A stretch of DNA of 64,000 bases from Streptomyces seoulensis (GTDB lineage Bacteria; Actinomycetota; Actinomycetes; Streptomycetales; Streptomycetaceae): assembly GCA_013364255.1 (NCBI GenBank), contig CP054936.1, positions 5,660,353 through 5,724,352 of the forward strand, given 5' to 3'. Positions within the stretch are counted from its first letter, which is position 1. Each line of letters begins with the position of its first letter. Both the position numbers and the translations under genes were made by a program. The notes below the pieces were generated by a model, which worked only from the letters and a program-made list of their open reading frames with translations, did no database searches and was not told the DNA's origin. Shown piece by piece: positions 4,575-48,627 of this stretch.

Positions 4575-5054
4575 TCAGTACGCGCTGTAGACGTTGTCGA
4601 TCGAGCCGTAGCGCGCCGCGGCGTAGTTGCAGGCGGCGGTGATGTTCGCGACCGGGTCGTAGATGTCGAACGACGTGCCGGCCACGTGGTACGTGTTGAA
4701 CGTCGGCTGGATCACCTGGAGCAGACCCTTGGACGGGATGCCCTTGGCGGCGTTGGAGTCCCAGAGGTTGATGGCCAGCGGGTTGCCGGAGGACTCGCGG
4801 ATGATGTTGCGGTGGATGCCGTTGTAGGAGCCCGGGATGCCCTTCTCGGCCATGATCGCCAGGGACTCGCGGATCCAGCCGTCGAGGTTGTTCGGGTACG
4901 AGACCGAGCTGACGGCCTTGGTGGTGGCCGGGGCCGCGGAGGCGCTGGTGGCGCCGATCAGCGGGACGGCGAGGACGGCGGCACCGGTGCCGCTGACGGC
5001 GAGGGTGCGCAGGATGCGGGCGGTACGGGTACGGCGCTGACCGGTTGCGGCCAT
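4575..5054 (-). CDS. Secreted lytic transglycosylase-like (SLT fold) protein under a c-di-AMP riboswitch
   Basis: A 159-residue exported protein predicted to cleave peptidoglycan glycan strands. Residues 1-40 form a twin-basic, hydrophobic signal peptide ending ATSASA, with cleavage expected near residue 40. The mature part has the SLT signature IIRESSGNP with catalytic Glu87, then KGLLQVIQPTFN at about 109-120 and NITAACNYAAARYG, typical of the goose-lysozyme/SLT fold. The ATG at 5054 follows AGAGGAAG at good distance. Its leader is a ydaO-type riboswitch, the usual control of actinobacterial cell-wall hydrolase and Rpf genes. It is short for a transglycosylase and has no LysM or other anchor. 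Confidence 0.9.
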   Translation of the reverse strand: MAATGQRRTRTARILRTLAVSGTGAAVLAVPLIGATSASAAPATTKAVSSVSYPNNLDGWIRESLAIMAEKGIPGSYNGIHRNIIRESSGNPLAINLWDSNAAKGIPSKGLLQVIQPTFNTYHVAGTSFDIYDPVANITAACNYAAARYGSIDNVYSAY

Positions 5055-5065
5055 GGGGGACTTCC

Positions 5066-5235
5066 TCTCCGTCGCCTGCGAGGTGAGCTGTCGGGTTCGG
5101 GCGGGGAGGTGCCCGGCCGCGCCCCGAAGGGCACGGCTTCACCCCGAGCCGTTCCGGCACGGCGTACGACGTAGGACGACGTACGGCGCTCCGGCCCGGC
5201 GACTTACCTGGGTCCCCCGCTCCTGCCATGGGTGT
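5066..5235 (-). ncRNA. c-di-AMP riboswitch (ydaO/yuaA type) in the leader of the SLT gene
   Basis: Read on the minus strand, the leader shows the ydaO-type conserved blocks in order: GCGGGGGACC (from about 5220), GGGGTGAAGCC (5145-5135), and the 3' block CCCGACAGCTCACCTCGCAG (about 5095-5076) followed by GGCGAC. The start codon follows about 20 bases after the 3' block. Ligand binding is known to reduce expression of the downstream gene in this class. The exact 5' edge (helix P1) was judged by eye. Confidence 0.93.
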
Positions 5236-5290
5236 CGGTTCGTTGGATTCGGGCGGCGGCAGGATTCGGCGTTCCGCCCGACTGGCCCGG

Positions 5291-5320
5291 AACGTATGCG
5301 AGAGCACATGTCCAGAACAA
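5291..5320 (-). promoter_or_regulatory. Promoter for the riboswitch-SLT transcript
   Basis: On the minus strand TTGTTC (5320-5315) and TACGTT (5296-5291) are 18 bases apart, a good vegetative sigma (HrdB-type) match. The predicted transcript starts near 5284 and would have a leader of about 230 bases containing the whole riboswitch. Confidence 0.55.
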
Positions 5321-5462
5321 GTGCCGAAACCACACCTCGTCCTAATTGACCTTGGTCTGGGGCGTTTGGGATGCTTGATCCTTTGCATTCGCCAAGAGTC
5401 AACTGGCTTGCCGGGAACGGGAAAGCGGGGTGTCGCGACGGGCCGGGGTGAGGGGGCCCCGC

Positions 5463-5476
5463 GTGACTCAAGTCAC
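5463..5476. promoter_or_regulatory. Crp-like site 1
   Basis: GTGACTCAAGTCAC is a palindrome with 6-bp arms and fits the Streptomyces Crp pattern GTG-N6-GNCAC exactly. It lies about 143 bases upstream of the SLT -35 box. Confidence 0.5.
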
Positions 5477-5558
5477 GGTTTGCCGGGCGGGAGGGCAATA
5501 ACGGCTAAGCGGAATTGGGATGCCAATACGGTTAAATCGGGCCATGGCGCTCACGTAT

Positions 5559-5572
5559 GTGACGGTCGTCAC
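5559..5572. promoter_or_regulatory. Crp-like site 2
   Basis: GTGACGGTCGTCAC fits GTG-N6-GNCAC. With flanks it reads TGTGA-N6-TCACT, one base off the classical CRP consensus. It is 96 bp from site 1 and about 270 bp upstream of the polyprenyl synthase start. Confidence 0.5.
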
Positions 5573-5843: not shown

Positions 5844-6854
5844 GTGACCGTCGTCGGGCCATTCGGGCTGAGCGTGCGGGACCAGGCTGTCGAAGCCGAT
5901 GTCCAGGCCGGGTTGACGGCTGTCGAGGAAGGGTTGCTCGAAGCCACCAAGAGCGAGGTCCCCTTCATCACGGAGGCCGCGCAGCACCTCGTCAAGGCGG
6001 GCGGGAAGCGGTTCCGGCCCCTGCTCGTCATGCTCGCGGCGCAGTTCGGCGACCCGTACGCGCCCGGGATCGTGCCCTCGGCCGTGGTCGTGGAGCTGAC
6101 CCACCTGGCGACGCTCTACCACGACGACGTCATGGACGAGGCCGCGGTGCGCCGCGGGGTGGCCAGCGCGAACACCCGCTGGGCCAACTCGGTCGCGGTG
6201 CTGACCGGCGACTTCCTGTTCGCCCGCGCCTCCCAGATCCTCGCCGACCTCGGTCCCGAGGCGGTCCGGGTGCAGGCCCTGGCGTTCGAGCGGCTGGTCA
6301 CCGGCCAGATCCTGGAGACCGCGGGACCGCAGGACGGCCGGGACCCGGTCGACCACTACCTGGACGTCCTGGCCGGCAAGACGGGCTCGCTGGTCGCCGT
6401 CTCCTGCCGGTTCGGCGCGATGATGTCGGGCGCCGACGAGACGGTCGTGGACGTGCTGACGCAGTACGGCGAGCGGCTCGGCGTCGCCTTCCAGCTCGCC
6501 GACGACGTCCTGGACATCGCCTCCGACTCGCACGAGTCCGGCAAGACGCCCGGCACCGACCTGCGCGAGGGCATCGCGACCCTGCCCGTGCTGCGGCTCC
6601 GCGAGCGCGCGGCGCGGCTGGGACAGGCCGAGGACGTCGCCCTGTGCGAACTGCTCGCCTCCGACCTCGCCGACGACGCCCGGCTCGCCGAGGCGCTGAC
6701 CGCGCTGCGCGCCCATCCGGCCCTGGAGCAGGCCCGCCGGGACACCGTGCGCTACGCCGAGGAGGCGCGCGCGGCGCTGGCCCCGCTGCGGGAGTGCGAC
6801 GCCAAGGCGGCGCTGCTCCAGCTGTGCGACGCGGTGGTGCACCGGGCCGGCTGA
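5844..6854 (+). CDS. Long-chain polyprenyl diphosphate synthase (menaquinone side chain)
   Basis: A 336-residue trans-isoprenyl diphosphate synthase. The first Asp-rich motif is HDDVMDE (D94, D95, D98) and the second is DDVLD at 220-224. GGKRFRP at 53-59 is the conserved substrate-binding arginine region. The residues before the first motif (LATLY) lack the bulky pair typical of short-chain enzymes, so a long product such as a C40-C45 chain for menaquinone is likely. The GTG at 5844 follows CAGGAGA. In Streptomyces this gene lies in the same neighbourhood as complex I genes, which use menaquinone, so the context supports a quinone role. Chain length cannot be fixed from sequence. Confidence 0.9.
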   Translation: MTVVGPFGLSVRDQAVEADVQAGLTAVEEGLLEATKSEVPFITEAAQHLVKAGGKRFRPLLVMLAAQFGDPYAPGIVPSAVVVELTHLATLYHDDVMDEAAVRRGVASANTRWANSVAVLTGDFLFARASQILADLGPEAVRVQALAFERLVTGQILETAGPQDGRDPVDHYLDVLAGKTGSLVAVSCRFGAMMSGADETVVDVLTQYGERLGVAFQLADDVLDIASDSHESGKTPGTDLREGIATLPVLRLRERAARLGQAEDVALCELLASDLADDARLAEALTALRAHPALEQARRDTVRYAEEARAALAPLRECDAKAALLQLCDAVVHRAG

Positions 6855-36214: not shown

Positions 36215-36296
36215 GGCGGTGTGCCCGAGCGGCCAAAGGGAGCAGACTGTAAATCTGCCGGCTCAGCCTTCCCAGGTTCGAATCCTGGCGCCGCCA
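36215..36296 (+). tRNA. tRNA-Tyr (GTA)
   Basis: 82 nt. The acceptor stem GGCGGTG pairs with CGCCGCC and the discriminator is A. The anticodon arm GCAGA-CTGTAAA-TCTGC gives anticodon GTA. A long variable arm typical of bacterial tRNA-Tyr is present, and the T arm is CCAGGTTCGAATCCTGG. CCA is not encoded. The 3' half is the left attachment site of the adjoining island. Confidence 0.97.
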
Positions 36297-42350: not shown

Positions 42351-42423
42351 GCCCCAATAGCTCAGTCGGCAGAGCGTCTCCATGGTAAGGAGAAGGTCTA
42401 CGGTTCGATTCCGTATTGGGGCT
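42351..42423 (+). tRNA. tRNA-Thr (GGT)
   Basis: 73 nt. The acceptor GCCCCAA pairs with TTGGGGC and the discriminator is T. The anticodon arm CTCC-ATGGTAA-GGAG gives GGT. D and T arms are normal and CCA is not encoded. Confidence 0.97.
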
Positions 42424-42469: not shown

Positions 42470-42542
42470 AGCGGTGTAGCTCAGTCGGTAGAGCAAGCGG
42501 CTCATAATCGCTGTGTCACCGGTTCAAGTCCGGTCACCGCTA
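42470..42542 (+). tRNA. tRNA-Met (CAT)
   Basis: 73 nt. The acceptor AGCGGTG pairs with CACCGCT and the discriminator is A. The anticodon arm AGCGG-CTCATAA-TCGCT gives CAT. The first base pair A-T and the D arm fit elongator tRNA-Met rather than initiator. Confidence 0.95.
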
Positions 42543-48554: not shown

Positions 48555-48627
48555 AGGGTCGTAGCTCAATTGGTAGAGCACTGGTCTCCAAAACCAGCGG
48601 TTGGGGGTTCAAGTCCCTCCGGCCCTG
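48555..48627 (+). tRNA. tRNA-Trp (CCA)
   Basis: 73 nt. The acceptor AGGGTCG pairs with CGGCCCT (one G-T pair) and the discriminator is G. The anticodon arm CTGGT-CTCCAAA-ACCAG gives anticodon CCA. Located directly upstream of secE, as is usual. Confidence 0.97.

Follow-up and report, generated by a model that had tools for sequence, protein, structure and literature searches.

The SLT-domain wall-hydrolase gene found in this Streptomyces seoulensis window (the whole 64-kb stretch of DNA that was analysed) is probably controlled at two levels, by cAMP acting through Crp and by c-di-AMP acting through a riboswitch, a reading to which we give odds of roughly two in three on the strength of sequence comparison. 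Under the proposed mechanism, cAMP-loaded Crp would bind a palindrome upstream of the gene (site A) and change, most likely raise, transcription from the predicted promoter P1, while c-di-AMP bound to the leader would lower SLT expression. The initial annotation of this DNA had placed the enzyme under both signals by way of the riboswitch and two Crp-like palindromes: the riboswitch and site A bear this out, the second palindrome (site B) does not, and binding by Crp itself is presumed from the sequence.

The SLT gene and its c-di-AMP riboswitch

The gene lies on the minus strand (4575..5054) and encodes a 159-aa protein with a lysozyme-like transglycosylase domain (PF01464, E 7e-8; 32.5 bits, cut-off 21.3), the N-terminus of which carries a stretch that looks signal-like by eye. 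Directly 5' of it, on the same strand, Rfam places a c-di-AMP (ydaO/yuaA) riboswitch aptamer (RF00379, 5250-5060, ahead of the gene at 5054-4575). The match reaches 54 bits, where the gathering score is 38 (E 9.8e-10 for the whole 64-kb window), and covers model positions 1-134, so that the presence of a c-di-AMP riboswitch on a wall-hydrolase gene, as first proposed, is confirmed by a full-length match to the ydaO model that exceeds its curated score. At the 5' end of the Rfam-placed aptamer (5250), the alignment contains non-standard pairs. The adjoining stretch at 5251..5276 (minus strand, beginning GAACGCCGAATCCTGCC), which falls outside the Rfam placement, fits the model consensus acGCcgAAucc better by eye than the strand that Rfam placed and is highly conserved across orthologues; the real aptamer start is thus probably near 5276 rather than 5250, and the riboswitch occupies almost the whole SLT leader. 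The genome of the organism holds five RF00379 riboswitches and encodes a DisA-type domain (c-di-AMP synthase). Rfam also places four plus-strand tRNA genes in the window, at 36215-36296, 42351-42423, 42470-42542 and 48555-48627.

The ribosome-binding site (RBS) of the SLT gene follows immediately 3' of the aptamer, and a terminator scan returned no terminator-like site or hairpin at the SLT leader, which together lean towards a riboswitch that would act on translation rather than on transcription. Taken by itself, the predicted fold of the leader is no better than those of its shuffles (z -0.86). Published accounts of related switches describe both modes of action: termination is given as the mechanism at rpfA (PMC10117811), translational control is assumed for a ydaO-type riboswitch of S. 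lividans (PMC8079986), and translational control is indicated for the nlpC riboswitch of Corynebacterium glutamicum (PMC9960051).

Conservation and ownership of the upstream palindromes

Two palindromes lie between the SLT gene and a divergent polyprenyl diphosphate synthase gene (5844..6854, plus strand; PF00348, E 5.9e-60). Pattern search locates site A, a strongly conserved Crp-type palindrome GTGA-N6-TCAC, at 5463-5476 (GTGACTCAAGTCAC), and the poorly conserved site B at 5559-5572 (GTGACGGTCGTCAC). Both read GTGAC-N4-GTCAC, with no other instance in the 64-kb window, and both fit the Streptomyces Crp consensus GTG(N)6GNCAC of Gao 2012, quoted for S. coelicolor in PMC10033298. Their presence had been correctly annotated at the outset, and the distances of 143 and 239 bases then given from the promoter are right if counted from the -35-like hexamer TTGTTC (5315-5320). 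It might be argued that GTG-N6-GNCAC is frequent in a GC-rich genome and that such matches arise by chance and mean nothing. The loose pattern does occur 1299 times genome-wide against 664 for its control, so the loose consensus alone proves little; the strict palindrome GTGACN4GTCAC, however, has 26 genomic copies, and its reversed control has 2. Taking two strict palindromes per 8.35 Mb as the chance rate, about 2e-4 would be expected in the 789-bp intergenic region, which was picked after the fact. For site A, which is moreover kept amid diverged sequence (below), chance is contradicted, and as an account of the locus it is exceedingly improbable; it may explain site B.

Orthologous upstream regions were drawn from genomes of the genus and from named contigs. 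The alignment comprises 66 regions with the riboswitch motif (the window and 65 named contigs, almost all of which carry a Streptomyces label), numbered by that motif, GGCAGGAGCGGGGGACCCA, with position 0 at 5227; 15 of the 81 sequences (the window and 80 named loci) were omitted for want of the motif (at most one mismatch) plus 420 bp above it, and one locus, L073, ends at a contig edge. The rows represent related species and are not independent trials. Within the 420 bp above the motif, GTGA-N6-TCAC occurs in 62/66 regions; in the alignment, all eight GTGA/TCAC bases of site A are present in 62 rows, and the other 4/66 have a single mismatch. Its position varies little, falling between -272 and -244 in 59 rows and at -193 or -203 in three (L102, L110 and L112). 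Controls were far less frequent: with a different gap (0-15), these half-sites appear in at most 11/66 regions, permuted half-sites in at most 7/66, and the runner-up among all 256 tetramer palindromes with a gap of 6, CCCG, in 23/66. Averaged over pairs of rows, identity reaches 98.5% in the half-sites of site A and 40% in the adjoining linker, so the surroundings have diverged widely around a preserved site. These comparisons show site A to be maintained by selection at a nearly fixed upstream place.

A second exact site, the counterpart of site B, is found in 6/66 rows (the window, L053, L057, L058, L079 and L098), which gives no support to site B as a general component of the arrangement; it is probably either lineage-specific or part of the divergent synthase gene. 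Presence in orthologous upstream regions had been set beforehand as the test of the two annotated Crp-like sites, and it separates them: site A recurs, exactly or with one mismatch, in all 66 rows, and site B in 6/66.

As both sites are intergenic between the SLT and synthase genes, they could in principle belong to the latter, leaving the SLT gene with its riboswitch only. In keeping with this, site A lies near -70 of a possible plus-strand -10 element, TACGGT (5527-5532, by eye), and the distance between site B and the start of the synthase gene is 284-285 bp in the window, in L053 and in L079, and by arithmetic in L008 too. Separation of the two genes in other genomes speaks against it. Where the synthase starts no more than 1200 bp from the riboswitch, site A is exact in 47/48 rows, and where the synthase is farther away or unseen in the available DNA, the exact site remains before the SLT gene in 15/18. 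Seen from the synthase, among the best 30 loci from 101 genomes searched (a sample that favours near relatives), all 16 with an SLT leader within 1.5 kb have the exact site, and none of the other 14 has one within 900 bp. Three of these 14 have an exact site at -1366 to -1387: in two (L213 and L224) an SLT-like match lies slightly beyond it by coordinates, and in the third (L208) the site departs from the consensus of site A. In a further three (genomes G011, G022 and G068) the SLT gene lies farther along the same contig and is preceded, at about 400 bp, by an exact site A (L031, L035 and L025). Site A thus probably belongs with the SLT gene, and we consider ownership by the synthase gene unlikely. 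Above site A there is also a moderately conserved, AT-richer block (5492-5540; minus strand CCGATTTA...CAATTCC), which is present in L052 too, where no synthase is seen upstream.

A candidate reader, the predicted promoter and a conserved block

Among the cNMP-domain proteins surveyed, Crp is the most likely reader of site A. A cNMP-binding domain is encoded at six places in the genome, and in a Pfam scan of five of these proteins one carries a Crp-type helix-turn-helix (HTH_Crp_2, 66 bits) and is the Crp orthologue; of the others, two are encapsulin-shell proteins and two have no DNA-binding match in that scan. The sixth place (L166), outside the Pfam scan, looks sensor kinase-like by eye. 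The Crp orthologue has a helix, GASRETVNKAL, identical to that of CRP chain 3i54, which we take to be the Mycobacterium tuberculosis protein.

A competing reading, which we regard as a minority one though it deserves more weight than ownership by the synthase, is that a factor other than Crp reads site A and prefers GTGAnTTGRSTCAC, in which case the SLT gene would not be under cAMP control. This would account for conservation inside the palindrome: at inner positions 5-9, T is found in 47/66 rows, T in 62/66, G in 64/66, A or G in 64/66 and G or C in 65/66, and because these inner bases (TTGR) are conserved beyond what Crp should need, another or an additional factor may read the site. Against it stand the occurrence of a Crp-type helix-turn-helix in one of the five scanned proteins and the architecture of the site, since GTGA-N6-TCAC is a half-site and spacing of the Crp/GlxR type, in line with the Crp consensus quoted above (PMC10033298). 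BldM, by way of its group I site, was considered as a specific alternative and rejected: its consensus, TCACcCgnncGgGTGA (PMC4125116), has the same half-site letters in the reverse order to those of site A. Elsewhere in the genome, a sequence identical to site A occurs at C1:4693331-4693344 (L047), between two divergent-looking genes that by eye are GAF/PAS-like and flavin-reductase-like; it is a candidate member of a site A regulon.

The predicted promoter P1 (5291..5320, minus strand) consists of TTGTTC (5320-5315), an 18-nt spacer and TACGTT (5296-5291), and is proposed from orthologue conservation, its hexamers falling within the most conserved upstream stretch in the 66 rows and likewise in 48 rows. 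Its start would be expected near 5284, shortly ahead of the point at which the aptamer probably begins (about 5276). Of the promoter elements reported for S. lividans (PMC8079986), the -10 TAnnnT is fitted by P1 and the -35 nTGACn is fitted poorly. A generic sigma-70 consensus scan did not pick P1 up. Lying over the -35-like hexamer is an imperfect inverted repeat, CACTTGT-N5-ACATGTG (5305-5323, minus strand), which is highly conserved in orthologues and may be an operator.

The centre of site A (5469.5) is about 185 bp above the P1 start, as predicted from sequence. Class I and class II Crp sites of E. coli have their centres around -41.5 or -61.5, reaching out to about -93, and site A appears too far away for simple activation by Crp from the predicted P1. 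At this distance Crp probably needs a second factor or DNA bending: it would make none of the usual direct contacts at -41 or -61, and would work either with a second factor at a conserved block that lies between site A and P1 or through a bend in the DNA.

That block, defined by orthologue alignment (5346..5404, minus strand), reads AGTTGA..CTTGGC...CGCAAAGGATCAAG, then CAAGGTCAA; among the 62 rows where site A is exact, 54 have the block at an offset of 64-66 bp to P1. Its core has one exact copy in the genome, and the idea of a genome-wide motif found no support, as one exact and three one-mismatch copies compare with 1 for the reversed control. A small coding sequence was likewise unsupported: no frame is open in all of the 48 cleanest rows, stops interrupting three frames in 48/48 and the remaining three in 16, 11 and 9 rows, and there is no clear three-base rhythm to the conservation. 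Among the 52 rows with a good block core, which are related to one another, the distance from site A to the core is 81.5-85.5 bp in 44, 92.5-96.5 bp in seven and 117.5 bp in one (L092). Roughly one helical turn separates the two clusters; a period test from which the 117.5-bp row was excluded did not single out 10.5 bp, and a helical phasing of site A with the block is suggestive only.

Coupling of the two signals does not extend to riboswitch genes at large. Within 1.5 kb above the five riboswitch loci of the genome, an exact GTGA-N6-TCAC is found at one and a one-mismatch version at one more, and with an exact site at 1/5 loci a general coupling of cAMP and c-di-AMP was rejected.

Hydrolases reported under dual control and the meaning of the SLT promoter

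The pairing of a Crp-family regulator with a c-di-AMP riboswitch has already been reported, for rpfA and nlpC, and the SLT gene looks to be a further example. In S. coelicolor, at least one Rpf is described as subject to a cAMP-binding protein, a c-di-AMP riboswitch and ppGpp-linked proteolysis (PMC5133688), and RpfA is placed under Crp, with expression of the hydrolase SCO5466 suppressed in a crp mutant (PMC5693915); both review statements cite St-Onge 2015. Like the SLT gene, rpfA encodes a wall-lytic enzyme behind a ydaO-type leader with reported Crp control, although the enzyme is a different one. In C. glutamicum, the nlpC operon has a c-di-AMP riboswitch and is listed under GlxR, MtrAB and EsrISR (PMC9960051), which again unites a wall hydrolase, a Crp-family regulator and the riboswitch on one gene. 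It differs from the SLT case in encoding an NlpC/P60 peptidase at the head of an operon, with a switch that the same source places at translation. In that source, GlxR control of nlpC is a citation rather than a result of section 3.4, and the nlpC reporter signal was slightly higher without MtrAB. A closer likeness may be SLIV_15360 of S. lividans TK24, a 'Transglycosylase' gene with a ydaO leader (PMC8079986, Table 3) and possibly the SLT orthologue by analogy of enzyme class and riboswitch family; unlike at the SLT gene, no Crp site is mentioned for it in the accessible part of that paper. A search of the open-licence literature, to which the Gao 2012 Crp targets do not belong, found no mention of a Crp site on the SLT gene.

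Comparison with rpfA was made over the best 30 loci from 61 genomes searched, a sample favouring near relatives. None of these 30 has an exact GTGA-N6-TCAC within 1 kb upstream; one-mismatch sites occur at nine (four at -15 in the leader, the rest scattered), and the loose GTG-N6-GNCAC lies within 480 bp at two. In S. seoulensis itself, the rpfA locus (L168) has a degenerate stretch, GTGGGATGAGTCTC, at about -305 to -292 of the start codon, which is partly conserved, 8 of the best 30 loci being identical through GTGGGATGAGT. By arithmetic its centre falls some 61 bp upstream of the rpfA start as predicted, which is a usual position for Crp, judged by E. coli, and the reports of Crp control at rpfA may trace to this stretch. 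The two genes would then be opposites, the SLT gene having the better site at an unusual distance (about 185 bp) and rpfA the weaker site at the usual one. What stands out at the SLT gene is the unusual spacing of site A and the conserved block between it and P1. A bolder version of the dual-control reading would give the SLT hydrolase, and not rpfA, the clearest Crp site of any c-di-AMP-switched wall hydrolase in this comparison. Crp would then drive the gene over a distance of about 185 bp, in helical register with a co-activator element specific to the locus, as a long-range input on top of the riboswitch, and production of the enzyme would call for high cAMP together with low c-di-AMP; in this full form the reading is doubtful, and we offer it tentatively.

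Germinating Streptomyces spores need their wall to be cut at the right moment. If dual control of the SLT gene is true, a second hydrolase with a conserved, near-perfect Crp-type site and a riboswitch of the same family would indicate that stacked control by cAMP and c-di-AMP recurs, and the SLT promoter would offer a cleaner test case for it than rpfA, with its 0/30 exact sites among the best 30 loci.
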